From Candidatus Poribacteria bacterium (GTDB lineage: Bacteria > Poribacteria > WGA-4E > WGA-3G), in the NCBI GenBank assembly GCA_021295715.1, contig JAGWBV010000011.1, positions 2,329 to 46,845 of the forward strand: DNA of 44,517 bases. The letters are read 5' to 3'. The notes beneath the pieces were generated by a model. It did not search any database. It was not told the origin of the DNA and was given only the letters and a program-made list of their open reading frames with translations. A program made the translations under genes and the position numbers. The first letter of the stretch is position 1. Each line of letters starts with the position of its first letter. Positions 3,009-36,534 of this stretch are shown here, in pieces.

Positions 3009-5039
3009 ATGCAGAAATTAACGATTGATGGTGAAACGTATACAAGTTCAATAGGGATGCGGTTCGTCAGGATTGAACCGGGGACATTTATGATGGGTTC
3101 AGAGAATGCGGCCCTATCGGATGAGCTGACAGCTGGAAAAGCATACCTCCGAGACGGTGATTGGGATGAACAGCCGGTGCATCAAGTAACCCTCACCACA
3201 CCGTTCTATATCGGCATTTTTCAGGTGACGAATGCACAATATGAGGCTTATGATCCCACACACCGTGCGTTGAAGAGTCTTCGGGACACGGGTTTCTCAA
3301 AAGAAGACAATGAAGCGGTTGTGTTTGTGGATTGGCACGATGCGACGCGCTTCTGTGAATGGCTCTCCGAGAAGGACGGACTTCCCTATCGACTGCCAAC
3401 CGAAGCGGAGTGGGAATATGTGTGTCGTGCGGGAACAACAACCCATTTTCACACGGGTGATACACTCCCGCCTGAATTCCATAAAAACGTTGGAGAGAGT
3501 TGGTACCCGGATGCGGGGCGGGGCCGTGGCGCAGAAGAAATCGTGCCTTTGCATGTTGGGAAAACCCCACCCAACGCGTGGGGTGCATACGATATGCACG
3601 GGAACGTGGAGGAGTGGTGCCAAGATTGGTATGGGACTTACGAACCGGGTCCACAGACGGATCCAGTGGGTAGGGCAGAAGGTTTGTATCGCGTTACACG
3701 GGGTGGTAGTCACTCGACGTTACTCTGTTATCTACGCTCAGCGAACCGGATGGGAGCAGTACCAGAAGATAAGCACTGGTACATCGGATTCCGTGTCGTC
3801 TGTGGTGAGATGCCGCAAACTTCCCCGACACCGGCACCGAAAGTGGGGTTATGGGGACGCGATGTTAAACAGGAAAATAGGAGTGCTCCCGCGCCAGAAT
3901 CCCCCTATTTTGCGGAACCGCTCACTTATGTTAAAATTTCTGAAGGTTCAAACGGACCGCTTTTTTCGGCGCATAATCACGTTCCGGCGATTACCGAATG
4001 TCCGAACGGCGATATGTTCGCAGCGTGGTATTCATGTGTGACAGAGCGGGGACGTGAATTGACAGTCGCCGCGAGCCGATTGCGCTTTGGCGAAGCCGAA
4101 TGGGACCCCGCCGAACCTTTCTGGGGTCCGCCCGATCGGAACAATCATGCCACCTCTCTGTGGCGAAACGAGAATGGACGGATTTACCATTTCAACGGAC
4201 TCTCAGCAGCCGCAACGTGGGGTCCGTTAGCGTTGGTGCTACGCCACTCCGATGATAACGGTGCGACTTGGTCGAAACCGCGCTTCATATCGCCAGAGCA
4301 TCGGCTCCGACACATGCCGATCGCTTCTGTTTTCCGAAGGCAGGACGGTTCTATTCTCCTCGCTTGCGATGCGGTGAGTGGCGGAGACGGCGGCACCGCA
4401 ATATGGCTCAGCGAAGACGACGGTGACACATGGTATGATCCGGGAGCAGGACAACCGATTCCCGAATTTGCCGATGGTAAACAGGGCGGATGGATCGCGG
4501 GTATCCACGCTGCTGTGGTGGAACTCACAGATGGCAAGTTGATGGCTTACGGCAGAGGTGATACAATCAACGAACGGATGCCGAAGAGTCTCTCCGCAGA
4601 TGGGGGTCGGACGTGGCATTATAGTGCCAGTCCGTTCCCAGTGGTTTCAGGCGGACAACGGTGTGTGCTGCTACGACTTCAAGAGGGACCGATTTTTCTC
4701 GCGACCTTCACGGGAGATCGGAGGGAACCGACATCCATGCCGATCGTTGATGCCTCCGGCAATGAACGTCTCGTGACCGGACTCTTTGGGGCACTGTCTT
4801 ATGACGATGGCGAAACATGGGAATGTATGCGACTGATTACGGATGACGGAGCAGATCGAGAGATCGACACGATGGATGGACGCCCCTTTACGATGGGACT
4901 AAACAGTGCCGAACTCGGTGGTTACCTCGCCGTTTGTCAAGGACAAAATGGGATCATCCATCTGATCAGTAGTCGTCAACATTACCGATTTAACTACACG
5001 TGGTTGAAAAAGGCACCCCCATCGAAAGTACGAGATTAA
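3009..5039 (+). CDS. FGE-sulfatase-like domain fused to sialidase (BNR) domain
   Basis: 676 aa without a signal peptide. Residues about 15-270 are a formylglycine-generating-enzyme-like (SUMF1/EgtB-type) domain: IEPGTFMMGSE, LPTEAEWEY, GNVEEWCQDWY, RVTRGGS and a GFRVVC end. Residues about 310-665 are a six-bladed sialidase-type propeller with four Asp-boxes (SDDNGATW, SEDDGDTW, SADGGRTW, SYDDGETW). The FGE fold includes sulfatase-activating enzymes and non-catalytic binding modules. The sialidase family includes exo-sialidases and other glycosidases acting on host glycans. Fusing them in one cytoplasmic-looking chain is unusual. Which activity is retained cannot be said from sequence. The following dioxygenase gene runs the same way and was probably adjacent before the IS insertion. 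The plus-strand MITE-like element ends 18 bases before the ATG. Confidence 0.85.
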   Translation: MQKLTIDGETYTSSIGMRFVRIEPGTFMMGSENAALSDELTAGKAYLRDGDWDEQPVHQVTLTTPFYIGIFQVTNAQYEAYDPTHRALKSLRDTGFSKEDNEAVVFVDWHDATRFCEWLSEKDGLPYRLPTEAEWEYVCRAGTTTHFHTGDTLPPEFHKNVGESWYPDAGRGRGAEEIVPLHVGKTPPNAWGAYDMHGNVEEWCQDWYGTYEPGPQTDPVGRAEGLYRVTRGGSHSTLLCYLRSANRMGAVPEDKHWYIGFRVVCGEMPQTSPTPAPKVGLWGRDVKQENRSAPAPESPYFAEPLTYVKISEGSNGPLFSAHNHVPAITECPNGDMFAAWYSCVTERGRELTVAASRLRFGEAEWDPAEPFWGPPDRNNHATSLWRNENGRIYHFNGLSAAATWGPLALVLRHSDDNGATWSKPRFISPEHRLRHMPIASVFRRQDGSILLACDAVSGGDGGTAIWLSEDDGDTWYDPGAGQPIPEFADGKQGGWIAGIHAAVVELTDGKLMAYGRGDTINERMPKSLSADGGRTWHYSASPFPVVSGGQRCVLLRLQEGPIFLATFTGDRREPTSMPIVDASGNERLVTGLFGALSYDDGETWECMRLITDDGADREIDTMDGRPFTMGLNSAELGGYLAVCQGQNGIIHLISSRQHYRFNYTWLKKAPPSKVRD

Positions 5040-5246: not shown

Positions 5247-6323
5247 ATGATTGTATCACATAAAATAGCCTTAGACGCAACAGACGATCACTGCACGTGG
5301 TTTTCACAACAATGCGGTTATGCCCGTTTTGCGTTCAACCACGCTTTAGAGGACTACAACAACGAACCTCGTCACTGGAAGGAACTCAATAAGCGTTTCA
5401 ATAGAGTCAAGCGTGGTATTGACTGGGCAGGTGGAATGGATCAACGTGCTGCGTTGTTTGGAATAAAGAACCTTGGAGACGCTATCAGTCGCTGGAAAAG
5501 CGGTCAAAATAGGAGACCGAAGAAAAAGAGACGGAAAGACCGTCAGTCGTATAGCACCGACCCGAACACAGTAAAAGTAGAATGGAAACGTATCAGACTC
5601 CCGAAAATCGGTTGGGTGCGTATGTATCAGAAGTTGCGACATAAGGGTGAGATTACAAAGGTAACCATATCAAGGACGGCACACCGTTGGTTCGTATCTC
5701 TAACGGTAGATACAGGAAAACCGAAGGAAACCCCACGAGACACACGTGGACTCCCTGTTATCGGCATAGACGTAGGTATCAACTCACTGGCGACCCTTGA
5801 TACAGGTAAGCAGTATCCGAACCCAAGACCTTTGAAGAAGTATGAGAAAAAACTTAAGCATGAACAACGTAAATTGAGCAAAAAAGAGTTTCTATCGAAT
5901 AACTGGTATAAGCAGAAACGTAAGGTGGAATGTATCCACTATAAGATCGCTTGTATCCGAAATGACGCTCACCATAAAGCGACTACAGAAATAGTCAATA
6001 TGGCAAGCGTTATTGGAATAGAAACACTCAAGATTACGAACATGCTTAAGAATAAGAACCTCGCCAAAGCCTTATCAGATAGTGCATTAGGCGGGTTTCT
6101 CGCTCTGCTCAAATCAAAAGCAGAAATGCTTGGGATCCCCGTTAGAGAAGCTCCGCAATTTTATGCTTCAAGCAAGACGTGTAGCAACTGCGGGCATCAG
6201 AAAAAAGAACTCTCATTATCAGAAAGAACCTATCATTGTGACGAATGCGGTTCTTCTATAGACAGAGACGTAAACGCTGCAATAAACCTAAAAAATCTCG
6301 CCGTCGGGCAGGCGGAGAGTTAA
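5247..6323 (+). CDS. tnpB: TnpB, RNA-guided RuvC-type nuclease of IS200/IS605 family
   Basis: 358 aa, apparently intact. The RuvC triad is complete: Asp in GIDVGINSLATL (about 173-184), Glu in GIETLKI (about 255) and Asp in SIDRDVNAAINLKNLA near the C-terminus. A four-Cys zinc ribbon (CSNCG…CDECG) precedes the last motif. The N-terminus (IALDATDDH…FAFNHAL) is the usual wedge/REC start. Members of this family cut DNA next to a short transposon-adjacent motif, guided by an RNA from the element's right end. The gene has its own promoter and structured leader. GGAAAGGGG upstream may supply a weak ribosome site. Confidence 0.93.
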   Translation: MIVSHKIALDATDDHCTWFSQQCGYARFAFNHALEDYNNEPRHWKELNKRFNRVKRGIDWAGGMDQRAALFGIKNLGDAISRWKSGQNRRPKKKRRKDRQSYSTDPNTVKVEWKRIRLPKIGWVRMYQKLRHKGEITKVTISRTAHRWFVSLTVDTGKPKETPRDTRGLPVIGIDVGINSLATLDTGKQYPNPRPLKKYEKKLKHEQRKLSKKEFLSNNWYKQKRKVECIHYKIACIRNDAHHKATTEIVNMASVIGIETLKITNMLKNKNLAKALSDSALGGFLALLKSKAEMLGIPVREAPQFYASSKTCSNCGHQKKELSLSERTYHCDECGSSIDRDVNAAINLKNLAVGQAES

Positions 6324-17230: not shown

Positions 17231-18292
17231 CTACAGTGGTAATGAAATCGGTGCGCCGATTTGGGAGGAACGGTAGGTTGCCTCTGCCAACTCGATACCG
17301 TCTCTACCCATCCGTCCGTGGGTCGTCGGTTCCGCTTCACCGGCGATGCATTGGAGCCAATGGTCGATGCTCGTTCCTTTTGCCGCTACCCCCCAATATC
17401 GCTGCTGCCGCCGTTCCTCTGGCATGTTGCGGTAGGTATCATCATCTGGCACAGGCGCAGTGAATTCTTCCACTTCCGCCATGTCGTGCGTTTTCCAACG
17501 GAGTCCGTTCTGAATCAACGTCGCGGAACCTTTGCTCGTGACGAGACCGTTCCCGCTGTTCCGAATCTCAGATGCCCAACTCTTCATCATCATACCAACC
17601 CCACCGTTCTTGAAATGCACGGTCAACACTGCATTGTTCTCCACGGCTTCTTCGGCAGATGGGTAAGTGCCACCAAGCGGCACATGGCTTGTGAACCCGT
17701 AGACCGTAGAGGCGGGACCGTAGAGCCACAACCAGATATCGAGTTCATGAATCGCTTGCTCTACGAGCATACCGCCCGACTCTGCCTTCACAAAGAGCCA
17801 CGGATGCCGTTCCGGTGAAAACCAGCCGACTTGATTGGAATACGCCATTTGCAGAGTGCCGAGTGTGCCATCGTCCAATAAGGATTTCAGTTTCATGTAA
17901 CCCGGACTGAACCGCATCATATAGGCGACCATCAGGAGGACCCCTGCCTCTTCAGCAGCGGCGATCATTGCTTCACCCTCCGCGACGTTACAACACATCG
18001 GTTTCTCCATCAAGATGTGTTTGCCAGCAGCGGCGGCAGCGCGGGTGATTTCGAGATGTGGACGCGGATGGGCACAGACATCGACTGCATCTATATCCTG
18101 CCTATCGAGGAGCGCGCGGTAGTCTGTGTAGGCATCAGCACCGAACTGGTCTGCTTGCTCATTTGCTGATGCTTCGTTGATGTCAGCGATTGCGACGATG
18201 TCAGCGCGTCGCGTCGGTTCTTGATAATAGGGAGCATGGAGATTTCGGAAGATACCGCCACATCCGATAATACCGACTCTGATTCTATCCAT
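17231..18292 (-). CDS. Gfo/Idh/MocA-family NAD(P)-dependent oxidoreductase (A)
   Basis: 353 aa. The N-terminal Rossmann motif is VGIIGCGGIFRNLH (about residues 6-19), followed by IVAIADIN at the second strand. The family signature GKHILMEKPMCCN (about 90-102) carries the conserved EKP lysine. The C-terminal α/β domain includes SGGMLVEQAIHELDIWLWL with the conserved HxxD-type pair (H, D). Members oxidise or epimerise sugars and inositols. A second paralogue lies 0.9 kb upstream on the same strand with a GrdB-like gene between, which suggests one operon or functional cluster. The substrate cannot be inferred. Confidence 0.92.
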   Translation of the reverse strand: MDRIRVGIIGCGGIFRNLHAPYYQEPTRRADIVAIADINEASANEQADQFGADAYTDYRALLDRQDIDAVDVCAHPRPHLEITRAAAAAGKHILMEKPMCCNVAEGEAMIAAAEEAGVLLMVAYMMRFSPGYMKLKSLLDDGTLGTLQMAYSNQVGWFSPERHPWLFVKAESGGMLVEQAIHELDIWLWLYGPASTVYGFTSHVPLGGTYPSAEEAVENNAVLTVHFKNGGVGMMMKSWASEIRNSGNGLVTSKGSATLIQNGLRWKTHDMAEVEEFTAPVPDDDTYRNMPEERRQQRYWGVAAKGTSIDHWLQCIAGEAEPTTHGRMGRDGIELAEATYRSSQIGAPISLPL

Positions 18293-18434: not shown

Positions 18435-19157
18435 TCACCTACTACTTTTAAGGATAGGAGGCGGGGTCTCGTCGGCTAAAAGTTCGAGTGCCTCGGCGAT
18501 GAGTGCGTGCTGCAATTCTGGGTTGTCGGGTTCACCGAGCGGATGTCCAAAGCCATACGGAACAAGCAAGGCACGAGGTGGTTTTACTTTCCTCGTAATT
18601 TCCTCAATAAGGGTAATTGAAACCGTGGAAATTCCCACATCTTCAACAGCACGTTGTATCAATCCGACGGATTGATTGCACATCGGTCAGACAGGGGTTA
18701 AGAAAGCGACGTTCACACCATCGGTTTTAAGCATCTGTGCAACCTCAGGTGCGGTTTGCGTAATAAGGGCGTGCGGTTTTGTAATGGATCCCATAAAACT
18801 GAAGTGTCTGTGATTGAGCGAACCGATTTTACCTTCGATCTCCAACTCCCTGAATCTATCAAGTGGGAACGCAAGGTTCGGATCTGTTTCGAGACCCCGT
18901 TCATCGTAAGCGGCACTTTTATGTCCATTTATGAGTGCTTGTGTCTGAACGGAATTTGGGATCTCTCGGTAGGAACAATCTCCGTTCCCAAAGGGATCCT
19001 GCCCCTCAAGCAAAAAACCGGCGGTTGTAATGAGCGCGACGCTACATTCATTCAACGGCACGCGCAGCGGCGTATGCGGCGATTCCTTATACCGCTTACC
19101 GCGATAAAGCTTCATAAAGAATCGAGATAGAGGATCAAGTTGACGCAAAGGTGCCAT
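18435..19157 (-). CDS. GrdB-like reductase family protein, selenoprotein candidate (in-frame TGA)
   Basis: 240 codons if TGA at 18687-18689 is read as selenocysteine. The first 156 residues match the glycine/sarcosine/betaine/D-proline reductase selenoprotein-B-like family (ALITTAGFLLEGQDPFGNGD, SYREIPN, FPLDRFRELEIEGKIGSLNH, FSFMGS). They end in VAFLTPV, directly followed by TGA. The reading frame continues as P-M-C-NQSVGLIQRAVE, giving a U-P-M-C redox motif in the place where this family has Sec, and then 75 further coherent residues to the true stop. A SECIS-like hairpin begins 10 bases after the TGA. The start has GAGG upstream and sits 12 bases after the second oxidoreductase. The alternative, a pseudogene, is less likely because both halves are conserved. 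No sel genes are in the window. Confidence 0.8.
18658..18676 (-). promoter_or_regulatory. SECIS-like hairpin downstream of in-frame TGA
   Basis: ATCAATCC-GTC-GGATTGAT forms a perfect 8-bp stem with loop GUC, starting 10 bases 3' of the TGA on the minus strand. Bacterial SECIS elements are short hairpins within the coding region, with a G at the start of the apical loop about 16-37 bases after UGA. Here that G is 18 bases after it. Confidence 0.6.
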
Positions 19158-19169
19158 AGGAACCTCGTA

Positions 19170-20195
19170 TTAGCCGTTCGCGAAAATGAGTCGCGTCCTA
19201 TTTTGGCACGGGAATTGGACTGTTTGTCCAGTTATGCCGCTTTCAATGGTAGCGAAGCCGATTTCATTGACAGCAGTATAATCGTCACGCGCACAATCGG
19301 GCAAGGGTCCACCGTCTAAGTAATCGGTAATCTGTTTATATGCGACCTTGAACGGACCCACGTTTTCAGGAAGATCGAGGGTTGCGTTATCAACTAACTT
19401 CCCCGCTTTATGCACAGTGGTGTCGCTATAAAAACCTGCCTGAACGCTGCCTTCACTGCCGAGGACATCAACCGAGAATCCACCCCGTGTGCCATGGTTT
19501 CCGACATGGAAACCGATAATACCACTTTCAAATTGGATCGTTGAACCCACAATCGCCGGTTCTGGTTCATAAGGCTCTGGCACATCCCCACCACCAGAAA
19601 CATATCCAGTCACTGAAACCGGGTCATAGCCAGCGAACTGGCAAATCATGTCCGTCGTGTGGATAGCGAAGGAAAGCACACCCCCACCACAATAACCGAT
19701 AACGGTTTCCACCTCGCCGATGAGTCCGTCCTTGATAAGCGATTGGAGACGTATGAGGTGTGGTGCCCAATGCCTCGTGTAATCCACGACAATCGGAATT
19801 CCTTTCGCGTCGGCACCTGCGGTCATCGTATCGACCTCTTCGAGGGAACATCCAGCGGGTTTTTCGAGGAAGATGGCTTTGATGTCCGCCCTTAGGACGT
19901 TCTGCATTACCTGAAAATGATGCGGTCCGCGCACACAGACAGCAACGATGTCTAAATCTTCACTTTCAAGCATCTGCGTATCCGTTTCGTAGTAGTTTAT
20001 GGAATTGGTTGGGAAGGCAGGTCCCCACACCTGTTGAAATTCTGTTTGGCGTTCCTGGGACATGTCAGCGACTGCGACCAATTCGGTTGTCTCACAAAAA
20101 CGGATACCGCCTGTGTGGCAATAGGGATAAGCGTCATCTGGTGTTGAATAACGGGCGGCGATACTGCCCAATCCGATGATACCGACACGATACAT
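19170..20195 (-). CDS. Gfo/Idh/MocA-family NAD(P)-dependent oxidoreductase (B)
   Basis: 341 aa. Rossmann motif VGIIGLGSIAARYS (about residues 4-17), ELVAVADMS at the second strand, and AIFLEKPAGCSLEEVD with the EKP lysine (about 97-99). The C-terminal domain contains GGGVLSFAIHTTDMICQFAG with the His-Asp pair. It differs strongly from paralogue A, so the two probably act on different steps or substrates. AAGGAG lies 8 bases before the ATG. The GrdB-like gene follows after 12 bases, so the two are almost certainly co-transcribed. Confidence 0.9.
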   Translation of the reverse strand: MYRVGIIGLGSIAARYSTPDDAYPYCHTGGIRFCETTELVAVADMSQERQTEFQQVWGPAFPTNSINYYETDTQMLESEDLDIVAVCVRGPHHFQVMQNVLRADIKAIFLEKPAGCSLEEVDTMTAGADAKGIPIVVDYTRHWAPHLIRLQSLIKDGLIGEVETVIGYCGGGVLSFAIHTTDMICQFAGYDPVSVTGYVSGGGDVPEPYEPEPAIVGSTIQFESGIIGFHVGNHGTRGGFSVDVLGSEGSVQAGFYSDTTVHKAGKLVDNATLDLPENVGPFKVAYKQITDYLDGGPLPDCARDDYTAVNEIGFATIESGITGQTVQFPCQNRTRLIFANG

Positions 20196-29881: not shown

Positions 29882-30877
29882 ATGAAACAACAGATGCTTG
29901 ACCGCTTTGGACGGATCCACACGAATCTTAGGATCTCGGTTACAGACGTATGTAACTTTCGTTGCATCTACTGTATGCCAGAAGACATGACCTTCATGCC
30001 AGACGCGGCACTGATGACGTTCGATGAGATTCTGCGCCTCACCCGCGTTTTCGTCGCCTTGGGTGTTAACAAAATCCGTATTACCGGTGGCGAGCCGCTT
30101 GTGCGTCCCGGTGTGCCTACACTCATAAGGCAATTGACGCAGATCGAAGAACTCAAAGACATCAGTTTGACAACAAACGGCATCGGTCTTATTAACCAAG
30201 CACAAGCACTTTACGATGCGGGACTCCGCCGTATCAATGTCAGTTTGGATACACTCAATGAAGAGAAGTTCGAGCAAATGACGCGCAGGAAGGTGCTCTC
30301 ACGCGTGCTTGCAGGGCTTAAAACAGCACACGAATGCGGTTTCAACCCGATTAAAGTCAACGCCGTCGCAATGCGCGGCTTTACCGATGACGAGATTGTT
30401 GATTTAGCGACCTTTGCCCGGCAAAATGATTATCAACTCCGATTCATCGAATTTATGCCGCTTGATGCCGATGATGTGTGGGGACGGAACATGTATATCC
30501 CCGGAAAAGAGATTATCGGAAAAATCAACGCCGTCTATCCACTCACACAGGTAACCCAGAACGGTGAAGCGAAGAACGACACTGCCCAAAGGTATCGCTT
30601 CTCGGATAACGGAAATGAGGTAGGGGTCATATCCTCCGTGAGTGAACCGTTTTGTGAAAATTGTAACCGAGTGCGTCTCACTGCTGATGGAAAGTTTCGG
30701 ACCTGTCTCTTCTCGCTAACGGAAACGGATCTGCTTACGCCGCTGCGCGAAGGGGGGTCAGATGAGGTGATTGCGGCGTTAATTCTCGATGCAGTCGCCC
30801 AAAAAGAGGCAGGGCATAAGATTAACGCAGCAGACTTCATTAAACCGGAAAGAAATATGTCGAGAATCGGCGGATAA
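29882..30877 (+). CDS. moaA: GTP 3',8-cyclase MoaA, radical SAM
   Basis: 331 aa, full length. It catalyses the first step of molybdenum-cofactor synthesis, GTP to 3',8-cyclo-7,8-dihydro-GTP. The N-terminal radical-SAM cluster motif is CNFRCIYCMPE (CxxxCxxC, about residues 24-31). ITGGEPLVRPG is the SAM-binding GGEP region. The C-terminal second 4Fe-4S site is CENCNRVRLTADGKFRTCLF. The chain ends in the conserved Gly-Gly. No ribosome site is obvious before ATG 29882; Met5 is an alternative start. No other moa/moe gene is in the window. The SUF locus that could build its clusters follows 97 bases later on the same strand. Confidence 0.96.
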   Translation: MKQQMLDRFGRIHTNLRISVTDVCNFRCIYCMPEDMTFMPDAALMTFDEILRLTRVFVALGVNKIRITGGEPLVRPGVPTLIRQLTQIEELKDISLTTNGIGLINQAQALYDAGLRRINVSLDTLNEEKFEQMTRRKVLSRVLAGLKTAHECGFNPIKVNAVAMRGFTDDEIVDLATFARQNDYQLRFIEFMPLDADDVWGRNMYIPGKEIIGKINAVYPLTQVTQNGEAKNDTAQRYRFSDNGNEVGVISSVSEPFCENCNRVRLTADGKFRTCLFSLTETDLLTPLREGGSDEVIAALILDAVAQKEAGHKINAADFIKPERNMSRIGG

Positions 30878-30974
30878 GCACTAAAATCAATTGAGAAAGA
30901 TGAGATGCGTTCGCAAATCGCAAAGTACTAAATGTTTCTAACTTGACTATAAGTAAGGAGTCCGGAGTCAAACA

Positions 30975-31760
30975 ATGAACAATGAGATAATAATTAAAGA
31001 CTTGCATATTAGCGTTCAAGAAAAACCAATTATCAAAGGATTAAATTTAACTGTTAAACAGGGTGAAATCCACGCGCTGATGGGACCCAATGGGTCGGGC
31101 AAAAGCACCCTTGCGAATGGCTTGATGGGGCATCCACTCTACGATATTGACTCTGGCGAAGTGATTTTTAACGGGGTCGATATTTTGGAATTGGAGCCGA
31201 ACGAGCGAGCGAAACTTGGACTTTTTCTCGCCTTTCAGTATCCAACAGCGATTCCTGGGGTTAGTTTAGCAAATTTTCTACGGCTTGCAGTGAGTGCAGT
31301 CCGTGTCAAAGAAGGGAATGGTTCGGGCAACGATAAACTCATTCCGATGCGCGAATTTCGCCGTGAACTTCGCTCAAAAATGAAACAACTCGGTATTGAC
31401 GATTCCTTTGCGAGGCGATACCTTAATGATGGATTTTCCGGTGGCGAAAAGAAACGTGCCGAGATCCTACAACTCGCAATGCTCGAACCTCAAATTGCGA
31501 TCCTCGATGAGACGGATTCCGGGCTGGACATTGATGCGATCCGAGTCGTGGGTGAAAGTGTGAGCCAATTGATTGGACCTGAGTTAGGGGTGCTGATTAT
31601 CACGCACTACCCGCGTTTATTGGACTACATCCGCCCGCAGTTTGTGCATATCCTGCTCGACGGTCAGATTGTTGAATCCGGTGGTTGGGAACTCACACAG
31701 ATGTTAGAAGCAGAGGGCTATGATCCGATTCGTGAAAAACACGGTATTACTGAGGCTTAA
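30975..31760 (+). CDS. sufC: SufC, Fe-S assembly ATPase
   Basis: 261 aa, non-transport ABC-type ATPase of the SufBCD scaffold. Walker A GPNGSGKST (about residues 37-45), Q-loop FQYPTAIPG, ABC signature FSGGEKKRAEILQ (about 153-165), Walker B LEPQIAILDETDSGLD, and switch His in IITHYPR. The family-specific FLAFQYP and DSGLDIDA segments separate it from transporter ATPases. The start has GGAG 7 bases upstream. It is the first gene of the SUF operon, with sufB 46 bases downstream. Confidence 0.97.
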   Translation: MNNEIIIKDLHISVQEKPIIKGLNLTVKQGEIHALMGPNGSGKSTLANGLMGHPLYDIDSGEVIFNGVDILELEPNERAKLGLFLAFQYPTAIPGVSLANFLRLAVSAVRVKEGNGSGNDKLIPMREFRRELRSKMKQLGIDDSFARRYLNDGFSGGEKKRAEILQLAMLEPQIAILDETDSGLDIDAIRVVGESVSQLIGPELGVLIITHYPRLLDYIRPQFVHILLDGQIVESGGWELTQMLEAEGYDPIREKHGITEA

Positions 31761-31806
31761 CTTGAAGCGGTGCGCGGCATTCCGCTAACATAATAGGAGA
31801 AGCGAA

Positions 31807-33225
31807 ATGGCAAATTCTGAAACGAACACCATAGAAGAACTCGGGGTGAGTAAAGAGTATAAATACGGGTTCCACGATGATATTAAACCTACATTCAAGT
31901 CCCGGAAAGGATTGGATGAAGAGGTTATCAATCAAATGTCCGACATCAAAGGGGAACCTGACTGGATGCGCCAGTATCGGCTCGATGCTTATAAAATTTT
32001 CAAGCAGAAGCCGATGACGAAATGGGGCGGTGACCTTTCTCAACTCGATTTTGACGACATCTACTATTACGTCAAAGCCTCCGACCGGAGCGAGCGGAGT
32101 TGGGATGATGTGCCGGACGACATCAAAAAGACCTTTGACCGGCTTGGTATCCCAGAAGCCGAAAGAAAGTTCCTCGCAGGTGTCGGTGCGCAGTACGACT
32201 CAGAAGTCGTTTACCATAACATCGTCGAAGAATTGGACAAAATCGGTGTAGTTTTCCTCGATACCGATACCGCTATCAAAGAGTATCCGGATTTGGTGAA
32301 GAAATACTTCGGTACTATTATCCCGTCTGCGGACAATCAGTTCGCGGCGCTCAACAGTGCGGCTTGGAGCGGCGGAAGTTTCGTATATGTTCCGCCGGGT
32401 GTAAAGGTAGAATACCCACTGCAAGCCTATTTCCGCATCAATAGCGAAAACATGGGGCAGTTTGAACGCACACTCATCATCGCCGATGAAGGGTCCCAGG
32501 TTCACTACGTTGAGGGTTGCACTGCCCCGACGTATAGCAGTGAATCCCTACACAGCGCGGTCGTCGAGATTGTTTGCATGAAAGGCTCTCGAGTTCGCTA
32601 CACGACGATCCAGAACTGGGCGAACAATGTATATAATCTCGTCACGAAACGTGCATTTGCCTACGAGGACGCGCAAATGGAGTGGGTCGATGGCAATCTC
32701 GGTAGCAAACTCACAATGAAGTATCCGAGTGTCTATATGATGGAGCCTGGTGCGCGCGGCGACATTCTCTCTATTGCGTTCGCAAGCAAGGGGCAGCACC
32801 AAGACGCAGGCGCAAAAGTCTATCATTGTGCACCGCATACCACTTCGCAGATAACTTCAAAGAGTATCAGCAAAGATGGCGGTAGATCCAGTTATCGCGG
32901 GTGGGTCGATGTTGCGAAAGGCGCGAAGGGGTGTAAATCCCACGTCGTCTGCGATGCCCTCATTCTTGATAAAGACTCCCGTTCAGACACCTATCCGGTT
33001 ATTGAGATCGGTGAAAACGATACGAACATCGAACACGAGGCGCGCGTCAGCAAAATCGGGGAAGAGCAACTGTTCTACCTGATGAGTCGTGGGCTTTCGG
33101 AAGAAGAAGCTTCCACAATGATTGTCAATGGGTTCATTGAACCACTCGTTAAGGAACTTCCGATGGAATACGCTGTCGAAATGAACCGCCTTATCCAACT
33201 TCAGATGGAAGGTTCAGTGGGTTAA
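31807..33225 (+). CDS. sufB: SufB, Fe-S cluster scaffold subunit
   Basis: 472 aa, standard SufB length. The β-helix core and family landmarks are present: [23 protein letters not shown] region, [24 protein letters not shown] with the Cys of the central region, [20 protein letters not shown], and C-terminal [25 protein letters not shown]. With SufC and SufD it forms the SufBC2D complex, which builds 4Fe-4S clusters and receives persulfide from SufS. It is preceded by AGGAG. The 119-base gap to sufD is filled with repeat-like sequence. Confidence 0.97.
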
Positions 33226-33344
33226 GTAGCAGTCGGCTATCGGCTATCGGCTTTCAGTAGAACGCATAACGGGTGAAAACGTTTTACCCACAACGAACTG
33301 CTGAGCGCTGATAGCTGAGGGCTATTACTAAGGAAAAAATAACA
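33226..33344. repeat. Repeat-rich gap between sufB and sufD
   Basis: It contains tandem CGGCTAT units (GTCGGCTATCGGCTATCGGC at 33231-33250) and a CTGAGCGCTGATAGCTGAGG stretch near the sufD start. This matches the TCAGT/AGCTGA-type intergenic filler seen elsewhere in the window and might influence sufB:sufD stoichiometry. Confidence 0.5.
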
Positions 33345-34706
33345 TTGCAAAAGGGCAATTTTTCAAAAGAATTTCTTCAAAAAATAGCAGCAACTGAGCC
33401 AAAATGGATGCGTGAGAAACGGTTGGAGGCTTACGCACTTTACGAATCCTTGCCGATGCCGCATACTACCAAAGACGATGTATGGAGACGCACCGTTGAT
33501 ATGCGAACCCAAGATTATTGGCGGCGCACTCGGCGACATCTCCGTGGCTTCGCACTCGAAAAATATCATCCAAATGCCCCAATGAACGGTAAATTATCCG
33601 CCGAAAAGTCAGATTACAACGACGAGGAAACAGCAGGCGTGCTTGCGCAAGTCGATGGGCAACTCCAATACACCTCCACCACCGAAACGCTGAAAAAAAA
33701 AGGTATATACTTCGCAGATCTCCACACCGCACTACAAGAACAACCGGAATTGCTGCGTACTTACTTTATGAGCAGGGCGGTAACTCTGGAGACGGCGTTA
33801 AAAAGCGGGAACATTGCCCAGCACAACAAGTTTGATGCACTTCACGGTGCTTTCTGGCAAGGTGGTTACGTCCTGCATATCCCTAAAGGCGTAAGAGTTG
33901 AAGAACCGCTGCGGGTTTATATCAAGATGTCCGAGGCGGAACATGCCGACCTATCACATACGCTCATCATCGCTGAAGAGGATAGTAAGGTTGTAGTCTT
34001 AGAGGACAATTCATCTACCAATCCAGATGTGGGGGGGTTGCATAGTGGAGCCGTAGAAATTTTCGCGGAACAGAATGCGAACGTGACTTACGTGCAGGTT
34101 CAACAGTGGAATCGCCAGGTTTGGAACATCGCCTCACATCGTGCTATGGTCTCCAGAGACGCGCAACTCTGTTGGGTAACTGCCTCCTTTGGTAGTAGGT
34201 TGAGCAAAATAAACCAAGCTGTTGTCTTAGAAGGTGCTGGATGTACTGCCCAAATGTTGGGATTGGCTTTCACCGATGCCCGGCAACACTTGGATATCAG
34301 TACTGCCCAAGAACATATCTCACCACACACCCACAGCGATCTACTCTATCGGGCAGTCCTGAAAGATAGGTCGCAGACGGCATGGGGTGGTAACATTTAC
34401 GTTTACCCGACGGCGAACCATACCGATGCGTATCAGAAGAACGACAATTTACTGCTCAGCGAGCGAGCGCATGCGGATACGCTGCCTGGATTGGAAATTC
34501 AAGCACACGAGGTGCGTTGTACACACGGCGCGACCGCTGGGAAGATCGATGCCGAACAGATTTTTTACCTAATGAGTCGTGGTGTGCCTTACGCACAAGC
34601 AGAAAAATTGATTGTTGACGGGTTTTTTGCCCCTGTCATGGAACGTATTCCGTTGGAATCCGTTCGCGAAGAATTGAGTACATCCGTTACGCGCAAACTT
34701 GAATAG
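33345..34706 (+). CDS. sufD: SufD, Fe-S cluster scaffold subunit
   Basis: 453 aa from a TTG start with AAGGA about 10 bases upstream; no ATG fits before conserved sequence. It shares the SufB/D β-helix and C-terminal pattern: GAFWQGGYVLHIPKGVRVEEP, LIIAEEDSKVVVLED, LDISTAQEHISPHTHSDLLY with the SufD-type His, HEVRCTHGATAGKIDAEQIFY and YLMSRGVPYAQAEKLIVDGFF. It pairs with SufB at the site of cluster assembly. The weak TTG start may lower its expression relative to sufB. Confidence 0.95.
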   Translation: MQKGNFSKEFLQKIAATEPKWMREKRLEAYALYESLPMPHTTKDDVWRRTVDMRTQDYWRRTRRHLRGFALEKYHPNAPMNGKLSAEKSDYNDEETAGVLAQVDGQLQYTSTTETLKKKGIYFADLHTALQEQPELLRTYFMSRAVTLETALKSGNIAQHNKFDALHGAFWQGGYVLHIPKGVRVEEPLRVYIKMSEAEHADLSHTLIIAEEDSKVVVLEDNSSTNPDVGGLHSGAVEIFAEQNANVTYVQVQQWNRQVWNIASHRAMVSRDAQLCWVTASFGSRLSKINQAVVLEGAGCTAQMLGLAFTDARQHLDISTAQEHISPHTHSDLLYRAVLKDRSQTAWGGNIYVYPTANHTDAYQKNDNLLLSERAHADTLPGLEIQAHEVRCTHGATAGKIDAEQIFYLMSRGVPYAQAEKLIVDGFFAPVMERIPLESVREELSTSVTRKLE

Positions 34707-34738
34707 TTTTCAGTTTTCAGAGGAATAGTTATCAGTTC

Positions 34739-34805
34739 GGATTTTCTACGAAAATCCTTTCAGTTATCAGTTGTCGGTTAGAAGATGGGTTCGTTAACCG
34801 ACAAC
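34739..34805. repeat. Two hairpins in sufD-grx gap
   Basis: GGATTTTC-TAC-GAAAATCC (34739-34757) and GTTGTCGGTTA/TAACCGACAAC (34770-34780, 34795-34805), an 11-bp stem. No T-run follows, so transcription probably continues. They may protect or process the message. Confidence 0.5.
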
Positions 34806-34828
34806 GAATAAAAAAGGAGTAACTCACA

Positions 34829-35170
34829 ATGAGTCAACCGAAAATTATCGCTTACATGAAGCCCGTCTGCGGGTGGAGTAATGGTGTCCGTGCCATCTTC
34901 GCCAAATACGGTTTGGACTATGAAGATAGAGACATCATTAACAATGAAAACAACTATCGTGAAATGGTTCAGAAGACGCGGCAGCCCTATCAGCCGTGCG
35001 TCCAGATTGACGATATAATGCTTGCCGATGTCAGCGGCGATGAAGTGGAACACTATCTGGTTTCAGAAGGAATTGTTAAATCCAGCGAGGCTGAAACCGA
35101 TGTCCCCACCGATCAGGCATGTGAGGACCATGGACCTTCCGCTGTCAATATTGGTTTCTCAAGCAGGTAG
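34829..35170 (+). CDS. Monothiol-glutaredoxin-like protein (CGWS)
   Basis: 113 aa. A thioredoxin-fold N-terminus with active site PVCGWSNGVRAIF (CGWS at about residues 14-17, beside the CGFS motif of Fe-S-carrying monothiol glutaredoxins), then a conserved RQPYQPCVQIDD segment (cis-Pro and a second Cys) and LADVSGDEVEHYL. The tail of about 25 residues is acidic and contains one more Cys. CGFS-type glutaredoxins bind 2Fe-2S clusters with glutathione and pass them to targets. The location between sufD and sufS supports cluster carriage rather than disulfide reduction. AAGGAG precedes the ATG. Confidence 0.85.
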   Translation: MSQPKIIAYMKPVCGWSNGVRAIFAKYGLDYEDRDIINNENNYREMVQKTRQPYQPCVQIDDIMLADVSGDEVEHYLVSEGIVKSSEAETDVPTDQACEDHGPSAVNIGFSSR

Positions 35171-35274
35171 AGGCGTGAACGGAAGCAAGAATGGAAGGAC
35201 GGAAGGATGGACATTCCAATCTTCCACCCTTCCACTCTTTCAATCTCTGATTTCATTCCAACAAGGTAACAACT

Positions 35275-36534
35275 ATGCACGCCCCTCACTTTCGCCCTCT
35301 CGACGTAGAAAGCATCCGCAAAGATTTTCCGATCTTCGCGACAACCCCACCGTTGGCTTTTCTCGATAACGCAGCGTCGACGCAAACACCGCGTCCAGTC
35401 GTTGAAGCGATGGATAGCTACTATGATACGTATCGTTCTAATATCCACCGCGGTATCTACCGTATCTCAGAAGAAGCAACGGCACAGTATGAACGCGCTC
35501 GTGAGAAGGTAGCACAACTCGTTAACGCCCCGCGGACACGACAGATTATCTTTACACGGAACACGACGGAATCCATCAACCTCGTCGCTTACAGTTGGGG
35601 CAGTGCGAACATCCAAGAAGGCGACGAAATTGTTCTCACGGTTATGGAACACCATAGCAACCTTGTGCCTTGGCAGCTGCTGGCACAGCGCACTGGGGCG
35701 GTGCTCCGATACATCGAGATAACTGACGAAGGGTTGCTTGACTTCACACAACTTCAGGAACTCGTCACTGAAAAAACAAAACTTGTCGCCATAGGGCATG
35801 TTTCCAATGTGCTCGGAACGATCAATCCGATCCAGTCGGTTATTACAGCTGCACACGCTGTTGGTGCAAAGGTCGTCGTTGATGCGGCACAATCGGTGCC
35901 ACATTTTCAGGTTGACGTTCAGCAGCTGGATTGTGATTTCCTGGCGTTCTCTGGACATAAAATGTGTGGTCCGACGGGTATCGGTGTCCTATACGGTAAA
36001 TTGGAACTCCTTGAAGAGATGCCGCCCTTCCTCGGTGGCGGTTCAATGATTCGGAGCGTCGAACGCGACGTATCCAGTTATGCTGAGCTTCCCGCCAAGT
36101 TCGAGGCGGGCACGCCAAGTATCGCCGAAGCAATCGGGCTTGGACATGCAGTCGACTATATTACACAAGCAAACTTAGCAGCACTTCAGGTTCACGAACA
36201 AGAGCTCCTAAAATACGCACACAATCGCTTACAAGAAATTGAAGGTATTACCCTCTATGGCCCCTCTTCACCGCATCAAAAAGCGGGTGTTATCTCCTTT
36301 AATCTGGAGGGTATTCATTCGCATGACGTGGCTGGTGTTTTGGATACGCACAGTATCGCCATTCGGGCAGGACATCACTGTGCCCAACCGCTCATGAAGC
36401 GGTTAGATGTTATCGCCACCGCCCGTGCGAGTTTTTACCTTTATAATACAATAGAAGAAGTGGACCGGTTATACGAAGGGCTGTGCAGAACACAAAAGTT
36501 GATGACTCGGCGCCGGAGAAGGAGAGAAGAATGA
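35275..36534 (+). CDS. sufS: SufS, group II cysteine desulfurase
   Basis: 419 aa. PLP enzyme converting cysteine to alanine and delivering sulfur as persulfide. Landmarks: FLDNAASTQTPRPV near the N-terminus, FTRNTTESINLVAYSWG, VMEHHSNLVPWQLL, VDAAQSVPHFQVD, and SGHKMCGPTGIGVLYG with the PLP lysine. The catalytic Cys sits in RAGHHCAQPLM, the short loop typical of group II. The stop overlaps the sufU start (ATGA), a translational coupling expected for the SufS-SufU partnership. The ribosome site is weak (CAACAAGGTAAC). The gap before it holds a GGAAGG…CCTTCC inverted repeat. Confidence 0.97.
   Translation: MHAPHFRPLDVESIRKDFPIFATTPPLAFLDNAASTQTPRPVVEAMDSYYDTYRSNIHRGIYRISEEATAQYERAREKVAQLVNAPRTRQIIFTRNTTESINLVAYSWGSANIQEGDEIVLTVMEHHSNLVPWQLLAQRTGAVLRYIEITDEGLLDFTQLQELVTEKTKLVAIGHVSNVLGTINPIQSVITAAHAVGAKVVVDAAQSVPHFQVDVQQLDCDFLAFSGHKMCGPTGIGVLYGKLELLEEMPPFLGGGSMIRSVERDVSSYAELPAKFEAGTPSIAEAIGLGHAVDYITQANLAALQVHEQELLKYAHNRLQEIEGITLYGPSSPHQKAGVISFNLEGIHSHDVAGVLDTHSIAIRAGHHCAQPLMKRLDVIATARASFYLYNTIEEVDRLYEGLCRTQKLMTRRRRRREE

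Follow-up and report, generated by a model that had tools for sequence, protein, structure and literature searches.

Does the TGA codon that interrupts a PrdB-like gene in a 44,517-nucleotide stretch of DNA from a sponge-associated bacterium of Candidatus Poribacteria (the window) end a truncated protein or encode selenocysteine, and what kind of enzyme would be made by reading through it? Two open reading frames of the minus strand, 19157-18687 and 18683-18435, share one frame and are separated only by a single TGA (18689-18687). The read-through product of 19157-18435 has 240 residues, contains the sequence ...LTPV-U-PMC-NQSVGL..., and ends at a normal stop codon (18437-18435) that is also TGA. 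The in-frame TGA at codon 157 is a real feature of this gene, and codons 157-160 (18678..18689, minus strand) give the UPMC, or UxxC, redox motif that the first-pass annotation had read from the TGA and the P-M-C following it. The same annotation had regarded the two pieces as halves of one family split only by the TGA; we found that the upstream half matches positions 20-145 and the downstream half positions 151-220 of the same PrdB profile, in register. Very probably, the gene encodes a UGA-read selenoprotein that is an orphan relative of PrdB and most likely a stand-alone selenol/thiol reductase.

Translation through the UGA, as had been proposed, is supported by conservation of the TGA, purifying selection downstream of it, a SECIS-type hairpin, and genes for selB, selD, and, at least in sister genomes, tRNA-Sec. 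Among the 60 genomes of the phylum (the window's own genome and 59 relatives), the TGA was kept in every match that spanned the site. In a scan of public genomes from several phyla, it occurred at exactly codon 157 in 75 of 76 loci, with cysteine at this position in the remaining one, a distant alphaproteobacterial protein. The hosts of these 76 relatives were Candidatus Poribacteria, Acidobacteriota, Brocadia and another planctomycete, a verrucomicrobium, Nitrospirota, and deltaproteobacterial genomes. Cysteine-containing members were not selected against, because one of the two search patterns made no contact with the Sec site and the other allowed only cysteine there. In 51 aligned sequences, position 157 was always Sec except for Cys in one, and Cys160 was nearly invariant; the gene shows the feature by which a bacterial UGA-encoded selenoprotein is recognized, a conserved in-frame UGA that falls at a redox position and lines up with Cys in homologues. 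Loss of conservation after the TGA had been named as an observation that would speak against read-through, and we found the opposite: dN/dS 3′ of the TGA was 0.07-0.13, as low as in the upstream part, indicating strong purifying selection. In a genome of the same class (G054, locus L067), the PrdB-like gene has a second in-frame TGA within a PIDxLAEL stretch, at a residue that is usually Arg in relatives; this second TGA could be a CGA-to-TGA error or mark a decaying copy.

The bacterial SECIS consensus is a hairpin shortly 3′ of the UGA with a G at the start of the loop. A hairpin of this type lies at 18658..18676 (minus strand), with an 8-bp stem (AUCAAUCC/GGAUUGAU) and a GUC loop (18668-18666), 18 nt after the UGA. 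Among 69 distinct sequences, the 8-bp hairpin occupied a fixed place 3′ of the UGA, its three-base loop always started with GU, and 95% of stem cells were paired. None of 1000 synonymous-codon shuffles, which preserved each protein column, matched this pairing (the shuffles topped out at 90%), and control stems slid along the alignment paired at 0.18-0.51 versus 0.95 for the SECIS stem. The stem also shows synonymous covariation. The comparative signal comes from the non-poribacterial sequences and from comparison between phyla; the poribacterial sequences alone are too alike for the stem to stand out, with 282 of 1000 synonymous shuffles reaching its pairing. Folding of one 61-nt stretch by itself produced no z-score signal.

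A check for selA, selB, selC, and selD, suggested by the first-pass annotation, gave a mixed result in this strain. SelB is intact (G000:C54:29721-31616), and selD (G000:C29:59245-60168) is itself a UGA-containing selenoprotein gene, as it is in all relatives whose selD exceeds the family cut-off. In nearly all relatives examined, a tRNA-Sec gene with a UCA anticodon lies directly 3′ of selB; the relatives' tRNAs have the Sec-specific fold, and the gene is intact in sister genomes. In the strain itself, tRNA-Sec (G000:C54:31679-31784; L060 7680-7785) is cut in the T loop: the first 74 of 94 bases are identical to the gene of a sister species, the final 20 are missing, and past base 74 the sequence continues into DNA that lies upstream of a lipoyl-synthase-like gene. 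Neither the missing 3′ end nor another copy was found elsewhere in the assembly, and either a genuine deletion or an error of assembly may account for the defect. SelA was likewise not found in the assembly. In a close relative, selA stands between a helicase gene and a cytochrome gene, and in this assembly these neighbors sit at contig ends (base 5 of C150 and base 56805 of 56805, the last base, of C18); because both end exactly there, selA probably lies in an assembly gap rather than having been deleted. With the tRNA-Sec 3′ end and selA missing from the assembly, Sec insertion in this exact strain is documented in part. Sponge symbionts have been found to be enriched in SelA and SelB (PMC5649159). 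The assembly also contains dispersed repeats of ~90-190 bases in dozens of copies (for example, the matches at L089 4485-4680 and 5750-5940), one of which coincides with the contig break beside selA.

The first-pass annotation was right to call the gene a selenoprotein gene but placed it too near GrdB, as PrdB (TIGR04483), the short, selenium-bearing subunit of D-proline reductase, is the closer family. The joined protein scored 146.6 bits (E 8e-43) against the PrdB model, with homology over its whole length, which is about half of the equivalog cut-off of 300 bits. Against the Pfam GRDB family (PF07355), it scored 37.5 bits (gathering score 22) with the UxxC site present, as expected for a member of the superfamily, and the match covered only positions 272-412 of the 431-position profile rather than the full GrdB architecture. 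True PrdB (Clostridia, Enterococcus, Ligilactobacillus) resembles the window protein in length, Sec position, and UxxC motif, and known PrdB proteins are 32-38% identical to it, with about 37% as the figure for the overall sequence, but PrdB has UGTCH and MGGGG motifs where the window protein has UPMC and MGSIT. In our tree, known PrdB proteins taken from plasmid records (Terrisporobacter, Enterococcus, Ligilactobacillus, and others) formed their own clade (support 98/98), and the window protein grouped not with PrdB of annotated prd operons but in a UPxC clade of 45 sequences (99/99), which was also separate from a UGxC set (Nitrospirota, deltaproteobacterial genomes, and deep Poribacteria) and from Cys-bearing alphaproteobacterial proteins. 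An annotated, Sec-containing prdB on a Peptoclostridium acidaminophilum plasmid (L178 4932-5645), with no prdA alongside it in the gene table, branched early inside the PrdB clade.

The pyruvoyl subunit family PF09338 (PrdA/GrdE) was absent from the 60 members of the phylum, including the window's own genome, and from 11 other carriers, whereas the same search found it in 3/3 PrdB-bearing plasmid records; no prdA, prdC, or prdD lies beside the window gene. Because of the separate clade and the absence of PF09338 with a positive control, we conclude that the window protein is an orphan PrdB-like protein of the UPxC clade and does not belong to D-proline or glycine reductase in their known forms. 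GrdB, GrdF, and GrdH of the glycine, sarcosine, and betaine reductases (PF07355, TIGR01918) are homologous in their C-terminal part, with the Sec site aligned, but the window protein is half as long, lacks their N-terminal half, and has no detected PF09338 partner. Alphaproteobacterial proteins named 'glycine/sarcosine/betaine reductase selenoprotein B family protein' (Roseomonas, Haematobacter) are likewise orphan and PrdB-like, with no reductase operon, but have Cys in place of Sec (CPVC, CPIC), ~300 residues, and a clade of their own.

How do other readings of the locus fare against these results? From one assembly alone, a sequencing error, a pseudogene stop, or a sense codon in a changed genetic code could not have been distinguished from a selenocysteine codon, but the recurrence of this TGA at 75 other loci, which come from independent projects, purifying selection 3′ of it, the use of TGA as the gene's own stop, and the relatives' tRNA-Sec with its UCA anticodon and Sec-specific fold refute all three, and we give them practically no weight. 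We consider it unlikely that this strain recently lost selenocysteine, with selC truncated by a small deletion, selA gone, and a 156-residue stub as the product. The cut tRNA-Sec, single in the assembly, and the missing selA would fit such a loss; against it stand the positions of the selA neighbors, the intact selB and selD, the identity of the remaining tRNA-Sec bases to the sister gene, and the lack of decay after the TGA, both in dN/dS and in the short end branch in the tree. Very improbable, finally, is that the protein serves as PrdB in a true D-proline reductase of Stickland fermentation: in favor of that reading, TIGR04483 is the best-matching family and the length and Sec site are the same, yet the sub-cut-off score, the separate clade, the different motifs, the missing prdA, prdC, and prdD, and the absence of PF09338 from the strain's own genome and 70 others all argue otherwise.

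Two Gfo/Idh/MocA oxidoreductase genes on the minus strand flank the selenoprotein gene, in agreement with the operon reported initially. One (341 aa, 19170..20195) lies 12 bases upstream and is probably co-transcribed, and the other (353 aa, 17231..18292) lies downstream, with a spacing that varies among loci. In 42 of 43 poribacterial loci, the gene directly preceding the selenoprotein gene is a Gfo/Idh/MocA gene, in most cases 12-13 bases away, the lone exception being an order-level relative, and in 41 of 42 a second one follows within 2.1 kb. This arrangement was absent from two deeper poribacterial loci, counted apart (L170 and L174), and from all other phyla, and no neighboring gene was conserved across the compared loci from outside Poribacteria. 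The Gfo/Idh/MocA context therefore reflects how this lineage uses the protein and does not define the function or chemistry of the family. Some Acidobacteriota have a neighbor that we take from its sequence to be purine-permease-like, and two Planctomycetota have one that is presumably methionine sulfoxide reductase B-like.

For the orphan PrdB-like selenoprotein, we propose that SelB and tRNA-Sec allow ribosomes to read UGA codon 157 as selenocysteine, directed by the hairpin, and that the product is most likely a soluble, stand-alone selenol/thiol reductase. By analogy with PrdB and other thiol oxidoreductases and their UxxC motif, Sec157 would be the likely nucleophile that attacks or reduces the substrate, Cys160 would be the thiol that resolves the Se-S bond, and recharging would be thioredoxin-like, a cycle to which we give about an even chance of being correct. 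A good predicted structure model (pLDDT 91) found no fold match in the PDB with E under 0.001 (TM about 0.3), and a PDB search by sequence gave no match that indicates a mechanism. In Poribacteria, the selenoprotein would be made together with a Gfo/Idh/MocA NAD(P) dehydrogenase, and we guess that the two may share a sugar-like or related small-molecule substrate. Since the protein has no pyruvoyl group that could hold an amine as an imine, it probably does not process an amino acid in the manner of the Stickland reductases. Because the pyruvoyl subunit is absent, the earlier suggestion of a new substrate is plausible, although its identity is a guess.

PrdB-labeled UxxC selenoproteins are already known as a kind from ocean metagenomes. 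Among known selenoproteins of the Sargasso Sea, PrdB with Sec ranked third in abundance (42 Sec, 1 Cys; PMC1088965), and it was among the commonest in the GOS data, again with UxxC (235 Sec, 110 Cys; PMC2398784). These abundant marine proteins resemble the window protein, as judged from their published descriptions rather than by sequence alignment, in sequence-assigned homology to PrdB and in Sec within UxxC, with Sec forms outnumbering Cys forms. They differ in being environmental sequences labeled as proline reductase, whereas the window gene is placed in a phylum and an operon, without a partner subunit. What is new is the host phylum, Poribacteria, for which our literature search found no paper describing a PrdB-like selenoprotein, together with the clear separation from true PrdB and the Gfo/Idh/MocA operon of 42/43 poribacterial loci. 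Because standard gene calling truncates it at the UGA, the gene is easy to overlook.

The lack of a pyruvoyl partner, the separate clade, and the retention of Sec argue that the 'proline reductase' label is wrong for the UPxC clade, and the presence of Sec in every sampled member, across several phyla, suggests a reaction that Cys sustains poorly. On balance, we slightly favor the view that the clade represents a selenoenzyme family in its own right, belonging to bacteria that lack Stickland reductases and carrying out PrdB-type selenol reduction on its own substrate without a pyruvoyl subunit. If so, the label in marine selenoproteomes would be wrong for many members. The outcome is a testable set of proteins with a conserved operon partner.

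Elsewhere in the window, the plus strand carries a gene for one 676-residue protein with a formylglycine-generating-enzyme-like domain and a BNR repeat domain (3009-5039), a TnpB-like gene (5247-6323; OrfB_IS605 with a Cas12f1-like TNB domain), and a group of SUF iron-sulfur genes (ABC ATPase, two SufBD-core proteins, and a class-V aminotransferase) adjoining a MoaA-like radical SAM gene (29882-36534).
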